64,000 bases of DNA, taken from contig NC_016946.1 in the NCBI RefSeq assembly GCF_000277125.1, forward strand, positions 4,092,001 through 4,156,000, given 5' to 3'. Origin of the DNA: Mycobacterium intracellulare ATCC 13950. GTDB taxonomy: Bacteria; Actinomycetota; Actinomycetes; Mycobacteriales; Mycobacteriaceae. Position 1 is the stretch's first letter; every line of letters starts with the position of its first letter. Below the pieces are notes generated by a model. The model saw only the letters and a list, made by a program, of their open reading frames with translations, did not search any database and was not told the origin of the DNA. Shown piece after piece: positions 3,369 to 12,683 of the stretch. The translations under genes were made by a program, and so were the position numbers.

Positions 3369-4340
3369 ATGCGCGCGGTACGGGTGACTCGGCTCGATGG
3401 TCCAGACTCGGTCGAGTTGGCCGACATCGACGAACCGACTGGTGACGGGGTCGTCGTCGACGTGCACGCCGCCGGGGTGGCGTTCCCGGACGCCCTGCTC
3501 ACCCGCGGCCTGTACCAGTACCGCCCGCAATTGCCCTTTGTGCTGGGCGCCGAAATCGCCGGCGTGGTCCGGTCGGCGCCCGAGGGCGCGCACGTGGGTC
3601 CCGGCGACCGGGTCGTCGGCCTCACGATGCTGTCCGGCGGCATGGCCGAGGTCGCAATCTTGGCCCCGGACCGGGTGTTCAAGCTGCCCGACAACGTGAG
3701 CTTCGAGGCCGGCGCCGGCCTGCTGTTCAACGACCTGACGGTGTACTTCGCGCTCACCGTGCGGGGCCGGTTGCAGCGCGGCGAGACGGTGCTGGTCCAC
3801 GGCGCGGCCGGCGGCATCGGCACCTCGGCGCTGCGGTTGGCGCCGGCGCTGGGCGCCTCGCGCACCATCGCCGTCGTCAGCACGCAGGACAAGGCCGACA
3901 TCGCCACGGCCGCCGGCGCGACGGACGTGGTGCTGGCTGACGGGTTCAAGGACGCGGTCAAGGAGCTGACCCACGGCCGTGGCGTCGACATCGTCGTCGA
4001 CCCGGTCGGCGGCGACCGGTTCACCGATTCCCTGCGCTCGCTCGCCCCCGGCGGACGACTGCTGGTCGTCGGATTCACCGGCGGTGAGATCCCCACCGTC
4101 AAGGTAAACCGATTGCTGCTCAACAACATTGACGTCGTCGGCGTGGGCTGGGGCGCGTGGGCGGGCACGCATCCGGGCGCGCTGGCCGAGCAATGGGCCG
4201 GCCTCGAACGTCTGCTCACCTCCGGGGAGCTGGCTCCGCCCGAGCCGGCCACCTACCCGCTGGACGAGGCCGCGGCCACCGTCGCCTCACTCGAAAACCG
4301 CACCGCCAAGGGCAAGGTCGTGCTGCGCGTCCGGGGTTGA
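3369..4340 (+). CDS. fadB4: FadB4, zinc-independent NADPH quinone oxidoreductase-like protein
   Basis: A 323-residue MDR-superfamily oxidoreductase, the same length as and closely similar throughout to M. tuberculosis FadB4 (Rv3141), and in the same position after fadE23. It opens with an alcohol-dehydrogenase-like domain (VDVHAAGVAFPDALLTRG). It has the coenzyme loop VLVHGAAGGIGTSALRLA (about residues 142-159) and a conserved C-terminal NRTAKGKVVLRVRG. The name suggests 3-hydroxyacyl-CoA dehydrogenase, but the sequence is of the quinone oxidoreductase type; in vivo activity is not settled. An inverted repeat starts 20 bp beyond the stop. Confidence 0.9.
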   Translation: MRAVRVTRLDGPDSVELADIDEPTGDGVVVDVHAAGVAFPDALLTRGLYQYRPQLPFVLGAEIAGVVRSAPEGAHVGPGDRVVGLTMLSGGMAEVAILAPDRVFKLPDNVSFEAGAGLLFNDLTVYFALTVRGRLQRGETVLVHGAAGGIGTSALRLAPALGASRTIAVVSTQDKADIATAAGATDVVLADGFKDAVKELTHGRGVDIVVDPVGGDRFTDSLRSLAPGGRLLVVGFTGGEIPTVKVNRLLLNNIDVVGVGWGAWAGTHPGALAEQWAGLERLLTSGELAPPEPATYPLDEAAATVASLENRTAKGKVVLRVRG

Positions 4341-4508: not shown

Positions 4509-4537
4509 ACAAAAAGTAATGTCACTTTCAGTTTTGT
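4509..4537 (+). promoter_or_regulatory. Candidate promoter with overlapping TetR-type operator
   Basis: An AT-rich island in GC-rich DNA, 35 bp upstream of the dioxygenase-like start. TAATGT (4517-4522) fits a -10 element. It sits inside an imperfect dyad centred on 4523 with outer arms ACAAAA (4509-4514) and TTTTGT (4532-4537); 10 of 14 positions pair. A second, shorter pair GTCAC/GTGAC (4521-4525, 4536-4540) overlaps it. A dyad over the -10 suits repression by the TetR protein encoded five genes downstream. This is inference from geometry. Confidence 0.45.
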
Positions 4538-4571: not shown

Positions 4572-5666
4572 ATGGAATCCTTTGTGCACCTGCGGAAAGG
4601 GAAGACGCCACGCCGGCTTCATGCGGATCTTGACGGGCTCAAGGACGACGAGCTGGGCCGCGGCGGGTTCACCGGTCGCACCGCCAACCTCTACCGGCGC
4701 AACGATCCCACCGCCTACCGGTCGGTCGGTCCGCTGCGCCCCCTCGACGTGCTGTCCAGCGAGCTCAAGCCCGGCGACGCCACCGACGCGGGTGGCGGGC
4801 CGCTGCTGATGTTCAGCAACGACGACTGCCGAATTCTGTTGAGCCGTCGCCATGAGCCGATGCCGTTCTTCGCTCGTCACGTCGACGGCGACCTGCTGTG
4901 CTTCGTCCACCAAGGCACCGGTCTGGCCGAGACGGAGTTCGGGCCGCTGCGCTATCGGGAGGGCGATTGGCTGTACATCCCGAAGGCGTGCACCTGGCGC
5001 CAGCTGCCCGATACCGCGACGACGATGCTGATGATCGAGGCCCGCGACGAGTTTCGGATACCGCCCCCCGGCGCGCTCGGCCGCCACTTCCCCTTCGACC
5101 CGTCGCAGGTCGTCATCCCCGAGCCGGTCCCCGCCGACGACGACGCGTCCGGCGGCGAGTACGAGGTCCGGCTGATCCACGAGGGCGGACCGACAACGCT
5201 GTTCTACCAACACAATCCGCTCGACGTCGAGGGCTGGCGCGGCGATAACTTCGCGTTCACGTTCAACATCGCAGACTACAACGTGGTCACCTCCGACAGC
5301 GTCCACCTGCCGCCGACCGTGCACCTGTTCATGCAGGCCACCGGCGTCTACGTGATGAACTTCCTGCCCAAGCCCGCCGAGGGCGTCCCGGGCACCGAGC
5401 GCACACCGTGGTATCACCGCAACGTCGACTACGACGAGATCGCCTTCTTCCACGGCGGCTCGCTCTACGGCATCCCGATGCCGCCAGGTTTGATTTCGCA
5501 TGCGCCGCAAGGGGTTCACCACGGCGCACCCGAAAAGGCGCGCGAACGGGCGCGCCGCAAGTTCGACGAATACTCCCGCGTCGACTGGCAGGTGATCGCC
5601 ATCGACACCCGCCGCCGGCTGACCCCGTCGGCGGAAATACTCGCCCACGACCTAGGACAACATTGA
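4572..5666 (+). CDS. Homogentisate 1,2-dioxygenase-like cupin
   Basis: A 364-residue cupin of the homogentisate dioxygenase (HmgA) family, whose members use Fe(II) to cleave the ring of homogentisate. The C-terminal metal-site region is intact: HRNVDYDE (His282, Glu289), then SHAPQGVHHG (His310, His316/317). The N-terminal half has the cupin pattern with FVHQGTGLAETEFGPLRY and EGDWLYIPKA. It is shorter than the human enzyme (445 residues) but normal for the bacterial branch. No hydroxyphenylpyruvate dioxygenase or fumarylacetoacetase gene lies nearby, so the substrate is probably not homogentisate. Start chosen at ATG 4572 because GGAGGAG sits just upstream; it heads the operon. Confidence 0.82.
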   Translation: MESFVHLRKGKTPRRLHADLDGLKDDELGRGGFTGRTANLYRRNDPTAYRSVGPLRPLDVLSSELKPGDATDAGGGPLLMFSNDDCRILLSRRHEPMPFFARHVDGDLLCFVHQGTGLAETEFGPLRYREGDWLYIPKACTWRQLPDTATTMLMIEARDEFRIPPPGALGRHFPFDPSQVVIPEPVPADDDASGGEYEVRLIHEGGPTTLFYQHNPLDVEGWRGDNFAFTFNIADYNVVTSDSVHLPPTVHLFMQATGVYVMNFLPKPAEGVPGTERTPWYHRNVDYDEIAFFHGGSLYGIPMPPGLISHAPQGVHHGAPEKARERARRKFDEYSRVDWQVIAIDTRRRLTPSAEILAHDLGQH

Positions 5667-5694
5667 TGACCCGCGATGAGGAGGAGCGGCGCTA
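5667..5694 (+). repeat. MIRU-like fragment between operon genes 1 and 2
   Basis: The 20-nt stretch 5673-5692 is identical to the 3' end of the MIRU-type unit between nuoG and nuoH (21498-21517). Here too it fills the whole gap between one gene's stop and the next gene's ATG and supplies the GAGGAG ribosome-binding site. Only the distal part of a unit is present. The MIRU assignment is from recognition of the family. Confidence 0.55.
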
Positions 5695-6891
5695 ATGACG
5701 CACGCCGTGAAACCCAAGAAGCACGAGTACGATCGCATCCCCTATCTCGTTGCCTTCCAGAACAATTCCGGTGTCCGGGACGTCTACGGCGGCCTGGCCG
5801 AGATCACCGTGCTGGAAAGCTACCTGCTCAAGCCCAGGGACAATCCGTCGGACACCGTGCTGGTGTTCATGCACCCGATCGGCGGTGGCGCCTACCTGCC
5901 GATGATCAATGCCCTGGCCCGCGCCGGTCATCACGTCATCTACTGCAACAGCCGCTTCCGCGGCACCGACTCGGCGCTGCTGATGGAGAAGGTGGTCGAG
6001 GACCTCGGCGAGTGCATCAAGGACGCCAAGAAACGGCTGGGGTACTCCAAGGTGGTGCTGGCCGGATGGAGTGGCGGCGGTTCGCTGTCGGTGTTCTACC
6101 AGCAGCAGGCGCAGAATCCGACGATCACCTCCAGCCCGACCGGTGACGGCCCCGACCTGACCAAACTCGACCTGCCCGCCGCCGACGGCATCATGCTGCT
6201 GGCCGCGCACATCAGCCGGCACGGCACGCTGACCGAGTGGCTGGACGCATCGATCCTCGACGAATCCGACCCGACCAAGCGCGATCCCGAGCTTGACCTG
6301 TACAACCCCGACAACCCCAACCAGCCGCCTTACAGCCAAGGATTCCTGGCCCGGTACCGGCAGGCGCAGATCGACCGCAACCGCCGCATCACCGCGTGGG
6401 TCAAAGACAAGTTGGCCGAGCTGAGGGCCGCCGGCCGGCCGGACGACGAGTTCGGGTTCGTCGTGCACGGCACCATGGCCGACCCGCGATGGCTGGACCC
6501 GACCGTCGATCCCAACGAACGCGCCCCGGGGACTTGCTACCTGGGGGATCCTCAAGTGGTGAACATGAGCCCCGTCGGGTTGGCCCGGTTCTCCACGTTG
6601 CGCGGCTGGCTCTCGCAGTGGAGTTACGACGACGCCCGCGGCGACGCGGTGTCCTGCGGGCCCGATATCGCGATCCCGGCGCTGGTGATCGGTAACCTGG
6701 CCGACGACGCGTGCACACCCAGCCACACCCGCCGGCTTTTCGAAGCGATCGGGCACCCGGACAAGGAGATACACGAAATCCCAGGCGCCACACACTATTA
6801 CGCGGGACCCGACCAGCGTGACGCGCTGCGCACGGCGGTCACCATCGTCACGGACTGGCTCGTCCGGCACGACTTCGCGAGCGCCGAGTGA
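5695..6891 (+). CDS. Alpha/beta hydrolase of the catabolic operon
   Basis: A 398-residue cytosolic alpha/beta-fold hydrolase. The nucleophile elbow is GWSGGG with Ser126. The oxyanion-hole region FMHPIGGGAYLP lies about residue 60. The likely acid is in NLADDACTP and the catalytic His in PGATHYYAGP near residue 360. It lies directly after the ring-cleavage-like dioxygenase, so hydrolysis of a cleavage product, an ester or a lactone is a reasonable guess; no family member I recognise fixes the reaction. Its 3' end overlaps the CoA-transferase start as GTGA, which implies translational coupling. No signal peptide is visible. Confidence 0.75.
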   Translation: MTHAVKPKKHEYDRIPYLVAFQNNSGVRDVYGGLAEITVLESYLLKPRDNPSDTVLVFMHPIGGGAYLPMINALARAGHHVIYCNSRFRGTDSALLMEKVVEDLGECIKDAKKRLGYSKVVLAGWSGGGSLSVFYQQQAQNPTITSSPTGDGPDLTKLDLPAADGIMLLAAHISRHGTLTEWLDASILDESDPTKRDPELDLYNPDNPNQPPYSQGFLARYRQAQIDRNRRITAWVKDKLAELRAAGRPDDEFGFVVHGTMADPRWLDPTVDPNERAPGTCYLGDPQVVNMSPVGLARFSTLRGWLSQWSYDDARGDAVSCGPDIAIPALVIGNLADDACTPSHTRRLFEAIGHPDKEIHEIPGATHYYAGPDQRDALRTAVTIVTDWLVRHDFASAE

Positions 6892-8093
6892 TTCCCACAG
6901 GTCCGCTGGACGGCGTCCGGGTGCTCGAACTGGGCACCCTGATCGCCGGCCCGTTCGCCGGGCGGCTGCTGGGCGACATGGGCGCCGACGTCATCAAGGT
7001 GGAACTTCCCAAGGCCCCGGACCCGTTGCGCACCTGGGGCCAGGCCGAAGTCGACGGGCAGCACGTCTTCTGGACGGTGCACGCGCGCAACAAACGAGCC
7101 ATCACCCTCGACCTGCGCCACCCCCAGGGCCGCGAACTGTTCTGCGAGCTCGTCGAGAAATCCGACATCGTGGTGGAGAACTTCCGCCCGGGCACCCTGG
7201 AGAAGTGGAACCTGGGCTACGACGTGCTGTCCGAGCGCAACCCCGGCATCATCCTGGTGCGCGTCTCCGGTTACGGACAGACCGGACCCGACGCGTCCAA
7301 GGCCGGTTACGCGTCGGTCGCCGAGGCGGCGAGCGGACTGCGACACCTCAACGGTTTCCCGGGCGGCCCGCCGCCCCGGCTGGCGCTCTCGCTCGGCGAC
7401 AGCCTCGCGGGCATGTTCGGCGCCCAGGGAGCGCTGGCCGCGCTGTACCGCCGCAGCGTGACCGGGCGCGGCCAGGTGGTCGACGTCGCGCTCACCGAAT
7501 CCTGTTTGGCCGTTCAGGAATCCACGATCCCCGACTACGACGTCGGCGGCGTGGTGCGCGGACCGTCGGGCACCCGGCTCGAGGGCATCGCCCCGTCCAA
7601 CATCTACCGCAGCGCCGACGGCTCGTGGGTGGTGATCGCCGCCAACCAGGACACCGTCTTCGCCCGGCTGTGCAAGGCCATGGGGCGCCCGGAGCTGGCC
7701 ACCGACGACCGGTTCGCCACGCACGTCGCGCGCGGCCGCAACCAGGACGAGCTCGACAACATCATCGGCTGCTGGGCGGCCGAACGCCAGCCGGGCGAGG
7801 TCATCGAAACCCTTTCCGCCGCAGGGGTGATCGCGGGTCCCATCAACACGGTCGCCGAGGTCGTCAACGACCCGCAGCTGCGGGCCCGCGACATGCTGGT
7901 CGAGCACTACGACGAGCGGTTGCAGCGCAATGTGCTCGGACCCGGCATCGTTCCGGTGCTCTCGGAATCTCCGGGCCGGCTGCGCAACGCCGGCCCGGCG
8001 CGTCCGGGCGAACACAACGACGACGTCTACGTCGGGTTGCTGGGCAAGACCGCCGCGGAACTCGAGGAGCTGCGGGCCCAGGAGGTGCTATGA
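6888..8093 (+). CDS. Class III (CaiB/BaiF) CoA-transferase
   Basis: A 401-residue family III CoA-transferase, which moves CoA between carboxylic acids through an enzyme-anhydride intermediate. It opens with PLDGVRVLELGTLIAGPFAG, has RNKRAITLDLRHPQGRE and VENFRPGTLEKWNLGYD, and the catalytic Asp is expected at Asp171 in SLGDSLAG, close to Asp169 of formyl-CoA transferase. In this operon it probably activates the acid released upstream to a CoA thioester for the lyase and dehydrogenase. GTG start overlaps the previous stop; its own stop overlaps the lyase start as ATGA. Donor and acceptor are not deducible. Confidence 0.87.
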   Translation: MIPTGPLDGVRVLELGTLIAGPFAGRLLGDMGADVIKVELPKAPDPLRTWGQAEVDGQHVFWTVHARNKRAITLDLRHPQGRELFCELVEKSDIVVENFRPGTLEKWNLGYDVLSERNPGIILVRVSGYGQTGPDASKAGYASVAEAASGLRHLNGFPGGPPPRLALSLGDSLAGMFGAQGALAALYRRSVTGRGQVVDVALTESCLAVQESTIPDYDVGGVVRGPSGTRLEGIAPSNIYRSADGSWVVIAANQDTVFARLCKAMGRPELATDDRFATHVARGRNQDELDNIIGCWAAERQPGEVIETLSAAGVIAGPINTVAEVVNDPQLRARDMLVEHYDERLQRNVLGPGIVPVLSESPGRLRNAGPARPGEHNDDVYVGLLGKTAAELEELRAQEVL

Positions 8094-9001
8094 CCACCCA
8101 GCATGTCCAGATTCGAGAAGTGGCCCTGCGCGATGGCCTGCAGATCGAGGCGCCAATCCCGTTGTCGGCCAAGCTCGAACTGCTGGCCGCGGTGGCGGCC
8201 ACCGGCGTCCGCGAGGTGGAGGCCACCGCGTTCGTCTCCCCGACGAAGGTGCCGTCGATGGCCGACGCCGCCGAGCTCGCCGCCCACCTGCACGACTACC
8301 CCGACATCGAATTCTCCGCCCTGGTCGCCAGCCCGAACGGGGCCAGGCGGGCCGTCGCCGCGGGCCTGCGCTCCATCGAGTACGTGGTGGCCGCCGACGA
8401 CACCTTCAGCGAGGCCAACGTCGGGCGCACCAGCGCGGAGGCTACCCACCAGATCGACGAGATCGTCGCGATCGCGCACGACGGCCCCACCGGCGTCCCT
8501 GTCACCGTCGAGGTCGTCATCGCCACCGCGTGGGATTCGCCGTTCGAAGGCCCCACCCCGCCGCAGCGGGTGCTCGACATCGCCGCGGCCGCACGCGAGC
8601 GCGGCGCCGACCGGCTGTCGATCGCCGACACCATCGGCACCACCACCCCGGGCCGCGTGAGTTCGCTGATCGCGCAACTGCGTCCGGTCATCGGGGACAT
8701 GCCGCTGGGCGGCCACTTCCACAACACCCGCGGCTCCGGACTGGCCAGCGCCTACGCCGCGGTCACCGCCGGGGTGACCCGGCTGGACGCCTCGGTCGGT
8801 GGGCTGGGCGGCTGCCCGTTCGCCCCGGGCGCCACGGGCAACATCGCCACCGAGGACCTGGTGTATCTGCTGCGCGACAGCGGTGTCGACGTCGACGTCG
8901 ACCTGCAAGCCGCCATCGCCGCGGCCGCCGTGGCGAAGTCGTTGGTGGGCCACGATTTACCGAGCTCCCTGCTGCGCGCCGGCGACCGGATACAGAATTG
9001 A
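8090..9001 (+). CDS. HMG-CoA lyase-like carbon-carbon lyase
   Basis: A 303-residue DRE-TIM metallolyase of the hydroxymethylglutaryl-CoA lyase type, cleaving a tertiary 3-hydroxyacyl-CoA to acetyl-CoA plus a keto product. Family residues are visible: IREVALRDGLQIE (Arg-Asp pair at the active site), GHFHNTRGSG with the His-x-His metal ligands (about residues 207-216), and GGLGGCPFAPGATGN with the catalytic Cys in the glycine-rich loop. True HMG-CoA lyases serve leucine breakdown, but the usual liu partner genes are absent here, so a branched analogue of HMG-CoA may be the substrate. Coupled to its neighbours by 4-bp and 1-bp overlaps. Confidence 0.85.
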   Translation: MTTQHVQIREVALRDGLQIEAPIPLSAKLELLAAVAATGVREVEATAFVSPTKVPSMADAAELAAHLHDYPDIEFSALVASPNGARRAVAAGLRSIEYVVAADDTFSEANVGRTSAEATHQIDEIVAIAHDGPTGVPVTVEVVIATAWDSPFEGPTPPQRVLDIAAAARERGADRLSIADTIGTTTPGRVSSLIAQLRPVIGDMPLGGHFHNTRGSGLASAYAAVTAGVTRLDASVGGLGGCPFAPGATGNIATEDLVYLLRDSGVDVDVDLQAAIAAAAVAKSLVGHDLPSSLLRAGDRIQN

Positions 9002-9624
9002 TGTCCGCCCCGGAGGCAACCCGCGAGCTGACCGCCAAAGGCCGCCAAACCAGGCAGGCCATCGAGCAGGCCGCCCGTAAACTGTTCGCCGAACGGGGGT
9101 TTCACGGCACCACGGTGGCCGACATCACGTCGGCCGCCGGGAAATCGCCGGCGGTGTTCTACCGCTACTTCACCGACAAGGAAGACCTGCTGGCGGCGCT
9201 GGCGAAATCGTTCCTGCACGAGGTGGTGACGCCGTCGGGGGCCAGTGTTCACCTGCCCGACGCCCCCGACGACGACGCCTTTTTCACCTCGGTGGTCACC
9301 GGCTACTGGAACATGTTCAAGCAGAACATCGGGATCATGATCGCGGTGGCCCAGCTGGCCGCCACCCAGCGCCGGTTCGCCGCCGTGCAGAACGAATTCC
9401 GGCGATTGGGCATCGATCTCGTGGCGGCATCGGTGCGCCGCGCCCAGGAGCAGGGCTACGGCGCCGAATTGAACCCCGAACACACCGCGGCGGCCATCGC
9501 GCTGCTGTTCGAGAACTTCACCACCGTGTTCGTCGGTCCCTCCAACCTGGGCATCAAGATCAGCGACAAGGACGCCATCGCCACGCTGTCGACGATCTGG
9601 AAGAGAACCCTGTACGGCGCATAA
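9001..9624 (+). CDS. TetR-family transcriptional regulator of the operon
   Basis: A 207-residue TetR regulator. The N-terminal helix-turn-helix is clear: AARKLFAERGFHGTTVADI then TSAAGKSPAVFYRYFTDKED (residues about 20-60). The rest is the variable ligand-binding domain. It is inside the operon, its ATG sharing one base with the lyase stop, so it probably autoregulates. The dyad at 4509-4537 is the most likely operator, and an acyl-CoA or pathway acid the likely inducer; both points are inferred from location. Another TetR gene at 34743 is not closely related. Confidence 0.88.
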   Translation: MSAPEATRELTAKGRQTRQAIEQAARKLFAERGFHGTTVADITSAAGKSPAVFYRYFTDKEDLLAALAKSFLHEVVTPSGASVHLPDAPDDDAFFTSVVTGYWNMFKQNIGIMIAVAQLAATQRRFAAVQNEFRRLGIDLVAASVRRAQEQGYGAELNPEHTAAAIALLFENFTTVFVGPSNLGIKISDKDAIATLSTIWKRTLYGA

Positions 9625-9634
9625 GGAGAAAACC

Positions 9635-10873
9635 ATGGATTTCACGCTGCCCGAGCACCTTCCGGGTGTGCTCGCCGAGATGGACGAGTTCATCGAGACC
9701 GAGATCAAACCGCTGGAACGCGAGAACATCCAGTATTTCGACCAGCGCCGCGAGCACGCGCGCACCGATTGGGACAACGACGGCATTCCCACCCGCGAGT
9801 GGGAGGACCTGCTCGCCGAGATGCGCAGGCGCGCCGACAAGGCGGGCTGGCTGCGCTACGGCCTGCCGGCCTCGCTCGGCGGCCGCGACGGCAGCAACGT
9901 CGACATGGCCGTCATCCGGGAACACCTGGCGCGCAAGGGACTTGGCCTGCACAACGACCTGCAGAACGAGTCGTCGATCGTCGGGAACTTCCCGCAGGTG
10001 ATCATGATGGAGCGCTTCGGCACCGACGAGCAACGCCGGGTGTGGTCGGAAGCGCTGATCACCGGGGAACGTTCGATGGCGTTCGGACTGACCGAGCCCA
10101 AGCACGGCTCGGATGCCACCTGGCTGGAAACACACGCCGAACGTGACGGCGACACCTGGGTGATCAACGGCTCCAAGCGGTTCAACACCGGCGTGCACCG
10201 CGCCACCCACGACCTGGTCTTCGCCCGCACCTCCGGGGAGCCCGGCGGCGCACGCGGAATCACCGCGTTTCTGGTGCCGACCGATACGCCGGGGTTCGAC
10301 GTTCCGTACTACTGGTGGACGTTCAACATGCCCACCGACCACGGCGAGGTCGAGCTGACCGACGTTCGGGTGCCCGCGGACGCGGTGCTCGGCGAGGTGG
10401 ATCGCGGCCTGGAGGTGGCGCAAACCTTCCTGCACGAGAACAGGATTCGGCAGGCGGCCAGCAGCCTGGGCGCCGCGCAATACTGCATCGACCGCGCCGC
10501 CGAATACGCCGGCGGCCGAACTGTGTTCGGCAAGCCGCTGTCGGTCAACCAGGCGGTGCAGTGGCCGCTGGCCGAGTTGCAGACCGAAGCACAGATGGTG
10601 CGCCTGCTGGTCCAATACGCCGCCTGGCATCTGGACCGCGACCACCACATGGAGGTCTCCGACAAGGTGTCGATGGCGAATTACCGCGCCAATCGCCTGG
10701 TCTGCGACGCCGCCGATCGCGCCATGCAGATCTTCGGCGGCCTCGGGTACAGCCGGCACGAGCCGTTCGAGCACATCTACCGACACCACCGTCGTTACCG
10801 GATCACCGAGGGCGCCGAAGAGATCCAGATTCGCCGGGTGGCGCAGCGGCTGTTCAACTTCGGCCGAAAATGA
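9635..10873 (+). CDS. Acyl-CoA dehydrogenase (LvaC/ACAD10-11-like partner)
   Basis: A 412-residue acyl-CoA dehydrogenase: AFGLTEPKHGSDATW (flavin-binding middle domain, about residues 149-163), C-terminal bundle with QIFGGLGYSRHEPFEHIYRH, and RITEGAEEIQIRRV containing the presumed catalytic Glu. AAGGAGA lies just before the ATG. The stop overlaps the start of an APH-DUF6285 protein. ACADs paired with APH-type kinases occur in Pseudomonas levulinate catabolism (LvaC with LvaA/LvaB) and in animal ACAD10/11, where they handle 4-hydroxyacyl-CoAs through a phosphorylated intermediate. That pairing is the best clue to function; ordinary beta-oxidation remains possible. Confidence 0.88.
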   Translation: MDFTLPEHLPGVLAEMDEFIETEIKPLERENIQYFDQRREHARTDWDNDGIPTREWEDLLAEMRRRADKAGWLRYGLPASLGGRDGSNVDMAVIREHLARKGLGLHNDLQNESSIVGNFPQVIMMERFGTDEQRRVWSEALITGERSMAFGLTEPKHGSDATWLETHAERDGDTWVINGSKRFNTGVHRATHDLVFARTSGEPGGARGITAFLVPTDTPGFDVPYYWWTFNMPTDHGEVELTDVRVPADAVLGEVDRGLEVAQTFLHENRIRQAASSLGAAQYCIDRAAEYAGGRTVFGKPLSVNQAVQWPLAELQTEAQMVRLLVQYAAWHLDRDHHMEVSDKVSMANYRANRLVCDAADRAMQIFGGLGYSRHEPFEHIYRHHRRYRITEGAEEIQIRRVAQRLFNFGRK

Positions 10874-12258
10874 TGCACGATGACGAGTCGGCCGAGCTGA
10901 CCGCCAAACTCGCCGCCGTGCTCACGTCGGCCATCGGCACCGACACGGCGGTCGAGAACCTGCGCGCGCTAACCGGCGGCGCCAGCAGAACCACCTGGGC
11001 GTTCGAGGCCGTGACCGGCGCGCAACGCCGCTCGCTGATCCTGCGCACCGGTCCGCCCGACGACGTGCATGCCGGCATGGAACTCGAGGCCCGGTCCCAG
11101 GCCGCCGCCGCGGCCGCCGGAGCTCCGGTCCCCCACGTCCTGATCGCCGACGATTCGCCTGCGGCACTGGGTAATCCGTTTCTGATCTGCGATGAGATCA
11201 AGGGCGAGACCATCGTGCGGCGCATCCAACGCCGGCTCGACTCCGGTGACGGGCACGCCGGCCGCGCCCGATTGCTGCAGCAGTGCGCGCAGGCGGCGGC
11301 CGCCATTCACCGCGCCGACCCACACGGCCCGGGCCTGGCCCACGAGGACCAGCTCGACGAATGGCGCCGGCGCCTTGACGACATGGGCGACACCACCGCC
11401 ACCTTCGAATGGGGGTTTCGCTGGCTGGCCGCAAACCGGCCCGACCCGACGCCGGCGGTGCTGGTGCACGGCGACTTCCGGATGGGCAACCTCATCGTCG
11501 ACGGATCCGACCTTGCCGCCGTGCTGGATTGGGAACTGGTGCACGTCGGCCAGGCGTACGAAGACCTGGCGTGGTTCTGCATTAGGGCCTGGCGATTCGG
11601 CGCCCCGGCCAGCCTGGGCGCCGGCGGCCTCGGCAGCATCGAGAGCTTCCTGCGGGCCTACGAGCAGGCCGGCGCGACTACCGTCGACCGGGTGGCGTTT
11701 CACTGGTGGCTGGTGCTGGCCACGCTGCGCTGGGGTGTCATCTGCCGATTCCAGGCGGAACGGCATCTGAGCGGTCAGCACCGCTCGGTCGAGCTGGCCA
11801 CCATCGGGCGCCGCGTCTGCGAGACCGAGTGGGACCTGCTCAACCTGCTCGCGCCCGCCGACGATGGGCGCCGCGCGGCGGCGCGAGGAGGAGGCGGGCA
11901 ATCGGGGCCGGGCGGCCCCGTGAGCGGTGCGTACGGCCGCCCGCGGGCGGCCGAACTCGTGGCCGCGGTGGCCGAATTCCTGGAGACCGACGTCCGGGCC
12001 GCGACCGACGGCCAGGTCAACTTTCACGCCAGGGTGGCGGCCAACGCCCTGCGCATCGTCGAGCGCGAACTACTCGACGACAGCGGGGCCGAATCCCGTG
12101 CGGCGCTGGCCGGCCTGGGTGTCGCCGACGAGGACCAGCTGGCCGCCGCGATCCGGTCCGGCGAGATGGACGACCGGGCGGCCGACGTCACGGCCTGCCT
12201 GCGCACCCTGGTACGGCGCCGGCTCGCCGTCGCCCACCCCGGATACGACAGCGAATAG
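10870..12258 (+). CDS. APH-fold kinase fused to DUF6285-like domain (LvaA-LvaB-like)
   Basis: A 462-residue protein with two parts. Residues 1 to about 330 are an aminoglycoside-phosphotransferase/choline-kinase fold: LTGGASRTTWAFE near the N-terminus, the catalytic loop HGDFRMGN at His200, and the metal-binding DWE at Asp220. After a Gly/Ala/Arg-rich linker (about 330-350), residues 351-462 form a helical domain (GRPRAAELVAAVAEFLETDV..., ending AHPGYDSE) that resembles DUF6285/LvaB proteins, normally a separate gene. An in-frame GTG at 11920 could start the second part alone. With the preceding ACAD it suggests phosphorylation of a 4-hydroxyacyl-CoA. Whether the fusion is real or a frameshift is discussed in the findings. 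Confidence 0.82.
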   Translation: MMHDDESAELTAKLAAVLTSAIGTDTAVENLRALTGGASRTTWAFEAVTGAQRRSLILRTGPPDDVHAGMELEARSQAAAAAAGAPVPHVLIADDSPAALGNPFLICDEIKGETIVRRIQRRLDSGDGHAGRARLLQQCAQAAAAIHRADPHGPGLAHEDQLDEWRRRLDDMGDTTATFEWGFRWLAANRPDPTPAVLVHGDFRMGNLIVDGSDLAAVLDWELVHVGQAYEDLAWFCIRAWRFGAPASLGAGGLGSIESFLRAYEQAGATTVDRVAFHWWLVLATLRWGVICRFQAERHLSGQHRSVELATIGRRVCETEWDLLNLLAPADDGRRAAARGGGGQSGPGGPVSGAYGRPRAAELVAAVAEFLETDVRAATDGQVNFHARVAANALRIVERELLDDSGAESRAALAGLGVADEDQLAAAIRSGEMDDRAADVTACLRTLVRRRLAVAHPGYDSE

Positions 12259-12269
12259 GAGCCACCGCC

Positions 12270-12683
12270 ATGCCCGCGTCCCGCGCAGAAACGGTCATCG
12301 AGGCCGCCGACCGCCTGTTCACGGCGATCGAGCGAGGCGATGTCGCGGCGGTCGGCGCGATGTGGAGCGACGACATCGCGGTATGGCGCGTCGGCTCGCG
12401 CCACGACCCCCTCAAAACGGACGACAAGGCCCGCGCGATGCGGGTCATCGAGTGGTTCATCGGCGCGACCACGCAGCGCCGCTACGAAATTCTCGACCGG
12501 CAGCTCTTCGACGACGGGTCCGCTCAGGGCTTCGTCCAGCAGCACGTCCTGCACGCGACCGGGCATGCGGGGCAATCGATCTCGCTGCGCGTGTGCATCG
12601 TGATCCGGGTGGGCACCGACGGCCGGATCGAGCGCATCGACGAATATTTCGACCCCGCCGGGATCGCGCCGTTGCTGGATTGA
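12270..12683 (+). CDS. SnoaL/NTF2-like small protein
   Basis: A 137-residue alpha+beta-barrel (NTF2/SnoaL-like) protein: an N-terminal helix pair (VIEAADRLFTAIERGDVAAV), then MWSDDIAVWR, and a C-terminal strand-rich half ending RIERIDEYFDPAGIAPLLD. Such proteins are often isomerases, dehydratases or ligand carriers, but many are uncharacterised. GGAGCC precedes the ATG, 11 bp after the kinase fusion stop, so it is probably the last operon gene. No catalytic residue can be assigned with confidence. Confidence 0.75.
   Translation: MPASRAETVIEAADRLFTAIERGDVAAVGAMWSDDIAVWRVGSRHDPLKTDDKARAMRVIEWFIGATTQRRYEILDRQLFDDGSAQGFVQQHVLHATGHAGQSISLRVCIVIRVGTDGRIERIDEYFDPAGIAPLLD

Follow-up and report, generated by a model that had tools for sequence, protein, structure and literature searches.

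Catabolism of 4-hydroxyacyl-CoAs through a phosphorylated intermediate was reportedly assigned to proteins in a bacterial study of 2017. The mammalian route was assigned in 2024-2025 (PMC11342911, PMC12440821), and one type of acyl-CoA dehydrogenase (ACAD) serves in both. The lva operon of Pseudomonas putida places an APH-fold kinase beside an ACAD and a small partner, the 12-kDa LvaB (PMC6692424, PMC11342911, PMC12440821), and in mammalian ACAD10 and ACAD11 the kinase and ACAD functions occur together in a single polypeptide (PMC12440821, PMC11342911). Here we describe an operon of eight genes in Mycobacterium intracellulare ATCC 13950 in which an APH-fold kinase likewise adjoins an ACAD, with DUF6285 as the small partner. 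It lies in a 64,000-nt window (the whole stretch of DNA analysed, 4092001-4156000 of the 5.40-Mb one-contig genome).

The likeness has limits. Compared with the lva operon, the ACAD of the window comes from another clade, has no HCMR motif and carries Glu for Asp; a CoA-transferase stands in place of the LvaE ligase; a cupin, a hydrolase and a 3-hydroxy-3-methylglutaryl-CoA (HMG-CoA) lyase are extra; and DUF6285 is fused to the kinase in this genome. Compared with ACAD10/ACAD11 by motif position, residues R626, H634, R637 and D753 are Phe, Gln, Ser and Glu here. Two further known systems resemble other parts of the operon. The cupin belongs to the sequence family of homogentisate 1,2-dioxygenase (HGD; PDB 3zds, 1ey2) and keeps its His/Glu/His metal positions, but has 364 aa, against 433-496 in the matched PDB chains, and Arg at the His of the AWHG motif; no other homogentisate-pathway families were found among the scanned neighbours. 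The transferase and lyase represent the same two enzyme families as human SUGCT and HMG-CoA lyase, but here their genes are adjacent and the transferase scores far below the curated cut-off.

Our best reading is that the operon serves a hydroquinone-like compound and contains a second kind of kinase/dehydrogenase pairing. To the fuller proposal, a near-core catabolic operon of Mycobacterium that is repressed by its TetR and whose three separable modules carry out the chemistry given below, we assign an even chance; the reactions, above all the acceptance of a phosphorylated substrate by the ACAD, are proposed from sequence. If a second ACAD clade is widespread and accompanies such kinases, either the phospho-acyl-CoA step has a second chemistry or functions deduced from neighbouring genes (kinase + ACAD = LvaAC) are misleading. 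Most sampled mycobacteria gain a conserved catabolic operon, and its natural partial versions allow comparison. The operon is described in no title or abstract of the literature searched, which mostly excludes the full text of subscription papers, and DUF6285 is mentioned in none of the full-text papers searched, a set outside which most subscription papers fall.

Gene content, conservation and modularity

Start-codon listing, translation and profile searches gave eight open reading frames (ORFs) on the + strand at 4572-12683, confirming the genes and families named in a preliminary description of the locus. The features, in window positions, are:

4513..4534, + strand: AAAGTAATGTCACTTTCAGTTT, an imperfect palindrome predicted to serve the operon's TetR as operator (37 bp before gene 1)
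4572..5666, + strand: HGD-family (HgmA_N) cupin, putative ring-cleavage oxygenase, 364 aa (Pfam, PDB match, conserved residues)
5695..6891, + strand: alpha/beta-hydrolase, 398 aa (best Pfam match Hydrolase_4; likely Ser/Asp/His triad)
6888..8093, + strand: CoA-transferase family III (Pfam; nearest curated family succinate-glutarate CoA-transferase)
8090..9001, + strand: HMG-CoA-lyase subfamily enzyme (NCBIfam cut-off passed)
9001..9624, + strand: TetR-family regulator (Pfam)
9635..10873, + strand: ACAD of the class here named II, 412 aa (Pfam, motifs, tree)
10433..10462, + strand: ACAD motif HENRIRQAAS, at the place of RxxxxRxxHxMR in LvaC/ACAD11; class II core RIRQAA
10805..10828, + strand: ACAD catalytic-base region TEGAEEIQ (Glu; LvaC/ACAD11 type: Asp, DGPxE)
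10873..12258, + strand: APH-fold kinase (HGDFRMGN, LDWE) fused to DUF6285 (at about 12001-12246)
12270..12683, + strand: SnoaL-like small protein, 137 aa (Pfam; >50% identity in 46/63 loci)

The genes were said to be mostly joined by short overlaps, and four of the seven junctions do overlap by 1 or 4 bp; the remaining gaps are 28, 10 and 11 bp. For TetR and for the kinase, a start one codon earlier is also possible.

Within the genus, a cupin match was found in 130 of 148 genomes (fragments only in G023 and G060; split or frameshifted in a few others), an ACAD match in 139 (E below 1e-130) and a lyase match in 138; four of the ACAD matches (G050, G088, G092, G147) have 64-66% identity and are distant from the lyase gene. 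The operon is thus near-core and not accessory, as had been supposed, and the cupin count rules out an accessory island. By tblastn, the order and strand of the members found were preserved in 63/63 mycobacterial loci, which bears out the conserved linkage for which the preliminary description had proposed a co-occurrence search. ACAD and kinase were present in all 63, lyase and TetR in 62, transferase in 61, cupin and hydrolase in 58 each and SnoaL in 46. The 63 loci are two sets (20 + 43) whose genomes may coincide, several stretches end at contig ends, and 3 of the 43 were assigned to mycobacteria by gene content, not title; adjacency rests on tblastn, the ORF caller used being crude and missing some genes. 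Because the cupin, ACAD and lyase are near-core and the order is kept in every locus, the simpler history looks like an old operon of the genus followed by losses. As a separate observation, the cupin gene is broken or fragmentary in G060, G074 and G076 (L and G numbers denote our loci and genomes), and G060 and G074 keep the remaining operon up to the kinase.

Beyond the genus the cupin thins out. Among the matches listed, 197/249 genomes at order level had one at 1e-10, those within the order and beyond the genus being mostly of 31-39% identity; the close family (66-76%) reaches eight such genomes (G167, G361, G224, G158, G172, G176, G181, G189). At class level, 32/345 genomes had a match at 1e-45. 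Named relatives are nearly all from Mycobacterium, Mycolicibacterium and kin (best 120 of 735 listed).

The operon is made of three separable modules: cupin/hydrolase, CoA-transferase/HMG-CoA-lyase, and dehydrogenase/kinase-DUF6285. Partial operons were examined in stretches of 18-19 kb each. The third module remains in L166 (fadB4-ACAD-kinase-DUF6285-SnoaL) and in G029 (ACAD-kinase-DUF6285-SnoaL; cupin and lyase not found genome-wide), with SnoaL in two pieces in both. The second and third remain together in L167, L168 and L169 (CoA-transferase-lyase-ACAD-kinase-DUF6285, plus SnoaL in L168 and L169), stretches in which cupin, hydrolase and TetR gave no match; in G105, G064 and G023 these same three genes were lost together, and TetR is gone along with cupin and hydrolase in 4/4 stretches that keep the ACAD in its operon place. 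CoA-transferase-lyase stands alone in L170 and L172 and with a hydrolase fragment in L171, and the same two genes remain in G002 and G063 (G063 with a hydrolase fragment). ACAD and kinase form a pair in L163, L164 and L165, where the lyase is elsewhere in the genome; a small ORF before the pair of L163 is DUF6285-like by eye.

Outside the genus, cupin and hydrolase form a constant pair. They occur with a CoA-transferase in L064 and L065, a flavodoxin-type reductase lying nearby; directly followed by ACAD and kinase in L066, L067, L069 and L071 (another family); with a CoA-transferase, SnoaL and a beta-oxidation set in L068, where ACAD and kinase lie ~7 kb downstream. In L070 their neighbours are an HpaB-type hydroxylase, beside the pair, and two further proteins of the ACAD fold. 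No match to the window's lyase, ACAD or kinase was found in L064, L065 or L070. Since modules are lost separately in the stretches examined, the single obligatory linear pathway of the preliminary description is unsupported.

The class II ACAD and its kinase

The LvaC/ACAD10/11 type is defined by a catalytic aspartate (D753 of mouse ACAD11; PMC11342911, PMC12440821), and one of these papers adds R626, H634 and R637, around the HCMR motif, as a second marker. At these places the window ACAD reads FLHENRIRQAAS and TEGAEE, which puts Phe, Gln, Ser and Glu at R626, H634, R637 and D753, the residues having been matched to ACAD11 by motif position in the sequence. The class II motif is the same in 20/20 loci of the genus, with TEGAEE or, once, TEGSEE. 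In class I rows, the corresponding stretch is RLGPGRIFH(A/C)MR or differs little from it, as does RLDPARLTHCMR, and the catalytic residue is Asp. In a rebuilt tree of 52 ACADs, class I and class II each formed a clade at SH-aLRT 100 and stood close together (93); a joint class I + II clade was not rejected (p-AU 0.33), a Halostagnicola row being nearer to class II. The ACAD had been described as LvaC-like, an identity that is ruled out by all four marker residues, at the phosphate site and the catalytic base, and by the separate clade. The same genome also encodes two ACADs of LvaC/ACAD11 type (HHAMR, ADGPTE) adjoining APH kinases, at about 280.7 kb (L141) and 4010.5 kb (L142).

The kinase is as had been described, an APH fold with DUF6285: the motifs HGDFRMGN and LDWE (HGDxxxxN, DxE) are intact, Pfam assigns APH, and the PDB matches include ACAD11. 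A 24-row kinase tree placed it with other DUF6285-linked kinases in one 16-row group (97/98) that is not split by ACAD class; both ACAD types are therefore found with related kinases. Kinase and DUF6285 make up one protein in the window, in L101 and, in another family, in L066 and L071. In the close relatives L084 and L085 they are encoded by separate, overlapping genes, and in Thermus and Sulfitobacter DUF6285 is a small protein of its own next to the kinase. In the window, a Gly/Ala-rich linker (about 11830-11950) joins APH and DUF6285. The Thermus cluster comprises a class I ACAD, kinase, DUF6285, histidine phosphatase, short-chain dehydrogenase/reductase (SDR) and AMP-binding protein, and one lva cluster also carries a histidine phosphatase gene (PMC6692424). 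Because of this resemblance to lva clusters, DUF6285 may be the LvaB family.

The ACAD partner of cupin-hydrolase clusters differs between lineages, because five such clusters from two other families (L066-L069, L071) carry ACADs with RLGPGRIFHAMR or RLGPGRIFHCMR and DGPDEVH, the LvaC type; an LvaC-type ACAD also adjoins the kinase in a Nonomuraea region. Class II ACADs of 58-65% identity were found by tblastn, on plasmids, in Haloterrigena, Natrinema, Halomarina, Nocardia farcinica, Sulfitobacter and a Rhodobacteraceae bacterium. In the four annotated haloarchaeal records and in Sulfitobacter, this ACAD has a kinase and a small protein as neighbours, the haloarchaeal small protein having no DUF6285 match in Pfam; in Nocardia farcinica a kinase match lies just upstream of the ACAD. 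Eight such rows share RIRQAA, a Glu two residues earlier and TEGxxE; the first motif residue varies, the His of the window's HEN being Tyr or Asn in two of the eight. Loci from a wider scan also show HQN, HKN and one RVRQAA variant.

That scan of genome collections returned at least 587 class II relatives, of which the best 80 loci were taken; 37 are non-mycobacterial by title or gene content. An APH kinase lies within about 6 kb of the ACAD in 23 of the 37, a DUF6285 match is present in 10 (by a home-made profile, built partly from sequences judged by eye, L163 included), CoA-transferase III in 10, and kinase plus transferase in 8; the cupin is in none (up to 6 kb each side). The hidden Markov model labels of the scan merge some overlapping frames, and missing lyase labels there were disregarded. 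For comparison, 6/82 ACADs of the window's genome lie within 6 kb of an APH protein, or 3/79 minus the window's and the two LvaC-type ACADs, so kinase proximity to the class II ACAD is well above background.

In our reading, the kinase-DUF6285 protein of the third module (often with SnoaL) would phosphorylate the hydroxyl of a hydroxylated acyl-CoA, and the class II ACAD would convert the resulting phospho-compound to an enoyl-CoA that enters beta-oxidation. We favour this because related kinases pair with LvaC-type ACADs and because a kinase is near the class II ACAD in 23/37 loci, against 3/79 in the background. Tentatively, and with less than even confidence, we extend it to two active-site solutions for the entry of phosphorylated hydroxyacyl-CoAs into beta-oxidation. 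One would be the LvaC type, with Asp and HxMR; the other would be the second clade, with Glu and RIRQAA, whose members come from haloarchaea, proteobacteria, acidobacteria and actinobacteria. In cupin-hydrolase operons that match in other respects, the two types would replace each other next to related kinases that bear DUF6285.

Several observations pull the other way. The window ACAD lacks the residues that, in a model of ACAD11, hold the phosphate; the sister row, Halostagnicola, is a conventional haloarchaeal ACAD with no adjoining kinase annotated; no APH kinase was found in 14/37 non-mycobacterial loci (up to 6 kb each side); and a Rhodobacteraceae region with a class II ACAD (L155) has no kinase match by tblastn. 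Because of the last two points, the class II ACAD may work without a kinase. These findings suit an alternative that we consider unlikely, though a serious contender, in which an unusual acyl-CoA (branched, cyclic or polar) undergoes conventional alpha,beta-dehydrogenation by the class II ACAD and the kinase acts at a separate step of the pathway, with no common substrate. The Glu at the usual ACAD place, the missing HxMR motif and the cyclohexanecarboxylate-CoA-ligase-like protein (667 bits, cut-off 792) that adjoins the class II ACAD of L177 also fit it; the pairing of a related kinase with the LvaC type in the five cupin-hydrolase clusters and the excess of kinase proximity over background do not.

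Clusters of class II ACAD, kinase and CoA-transferase also occur in Proteobacteria (L177:2701-10161, L174, L180), and L174 has a similar-looking ligase and transporter genes, judged by eye only.

The cupin-hydrolase and CoA-transferase-lyase modules

The best PDB match of the cupin is HGD (E 3.5e-11). His282 and His317 do not vary across the 21 aligned rows, each of which has a Glu at +6 or +7 from the first His, and Glu289 is kept in 17 close homologues. These are presumably the Fe ligand positions of HGD, so the earlier assignment of the cupin as an HGD relative with its metal site retained stands. Its score for the HGD equivalog is 41.6 bits, below the cut-off of 510.75, and the AWHG of HGD is GWRG, with Arg replacing His; that His is Asp in most of the other actinobacterial cupin homologues aligned (31-37% identity). 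Because of the low score and the Arg, homogentisate is an unlikely substrate. The hydrolase keeps a likely catalytic triad of Ser (in GWSGGG), Asp and His. On plasmids of Neorhizobium and Sagittula, relatives of ~50% identity lie beside FAD monooxygenases and not far from p-hydroxycinnamoyl-CoA hydratase/lyases.

In the proposed first module, to which TetR also belongs, the cupin would act as an HGD-type Fe(II) dioxygenase that opens a dihydroxylated, hydroquinone-like ring, and the hydrolase, with its Ser/Asp/His set, would cut the ring-cleavage product. Ring cleavage is favoured because of the HGD family, the metal positions, the HpaB-type hydroxylase of L070, the flavodoxin-type reductase of L064 and L065, and quinone/flavin genes upstream: in L100 (7526-9108) the genes immediately before the cupin encode an ACAD-fold flavoprotein and an F420H2-dependent quinone reductase, and upstream homologues occur of both in L091, L093 and L094 and of the flavoprotein alone in L103. 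These redox genes suggest a hydroquinone-like substrate. A methylated-quinone or tocopherol-like compound, given an HGD-like enzyme, quinone reductases and an HMG-type lyase, is a guess. The altered AWHG motif tells against this putative ring cleavage.

A cupin paralogue of 48-51% identity occurs in P450/SDR/CoA-transferase clusters (L076-L079 and L264, the M. avium plasmid pP7a); no substrate is indicated by these clusters with their P450s and mycofactocin-coupled SDR.

The lyase scores 260 bits against an NCBIfam cut-off of 246 for the HMG-CoA-lyase subfamily, and has the signatures RDGLQ, HFHNTRG and GGLGGCPFAPGATGN, including its Cys, residues that we take to be catalytic in HMG-CoA lyase. 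Of the seven curated families matched by the transferase, succinate-glutarate CoA-transferase was best, at 262 bits, below its cut-off of 750. In the second module, the CoA-transferase would transfer CoA, for which succinyl-CoA is the probable donor, to a dicarboxylic acid similar to 3-hydroxy-3-methylglutarate, and the lyase would split the CoA ester into acetyl-CoA and a 3-oxo acid. This is favoured because the lyase passes its curated cut-off and human SUGCT is named a succinate-hydroxymethylglutarate CoA-transferase.

It is improbable that the modules are unrelated (HMG/leucine-type CoA-ester cleavage, hydroxy-acid salvage and ring cleavage) and share one promoter with no common substrate. 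Modules do occur alone, and the lyase has no other close homologue in the genome (two weak matches at 28-30% only), so a housekeeping role is possible; however, the order is identical in 63/63 loci, a CoA-transferase accompanies cupin-hydrolase in L064, L065 and L068, and a CoA-transferase shares the stretch with ACAD and kinase in 8/37 non-mycobacterial loci. Very unlikely is the pathway of the preliminary description, in which a ring is opened, hydrolysed and activated, its 4-hydroxyl moved to C3 by an LvaA/LvaB/LvaC set and the product split by the lyase: its families and linkage were confirmed, but the ACAD lacks all four LvaC-type residues and falls in the other clade, and the modules are separable, with nothing to order the steps.

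The predicted TetR operator and the surroundings of the operon

The palindrome AAASTAANSTYASTTTYASTTY precedes the cupin. An exact copy was found once in 11 of 13 genomes of the genus, always just before the cupin, and in none of 8 outside it; a reversed-pattern control gave 0 matches in the 21 genomes. The window holds one exact copy, with none expected by chance, and the sole match at 3 mismatches is this copy read from the opposite strand. With no more than 2 mismatches allowed, 57/63 mycobacterial loci contain the palindrome; 14 loci have two matches, which may be one palindrome read on both strands. The six misses are five stretches without cupin and L212, where the cupin is present and a TetR match absent. 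L167 has neither TetR nor site and L168 a 3-mismatch match only. Repression by the TetR at this palindrome is likely, the TetR-operator link being inferred. Two cases speak against it: L169, without cupin, hydrolase and TetR, keeps a perfect palindrome before the CoA-transferase, because of which the correlation is imperfect, and of the two genus genomes without an exact site, G002 has no cupin and G010 has one. No consensus promoter was found for the operon.

Upstream of the operon lies a quinone-oxidoreductase-like alcohol dehydrogenase (3369-4340), the fadB4 of the preliminary description. On the other side follow, from 13885, a YceI gene and six genes for complex I, which Pfam identifies as nuoA-F. 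The fadB4 and nuo flanks given in that description agree with this; 'inserted' between them is not right, the operon being near-core in the genus. Later insertions into the operon were seen in a few relatives. L095-L098 have a mycolic-acid cyclopropane-synthase-like methyltransferase and an S4-domain gene between the lyase and TetR genes (identified by Pfam for L096 and by homology in L095, L097 and L098), and L091 (16678-18258) has a transposase gene, with a homologue in L093, between the kinase and SnoaL genes.

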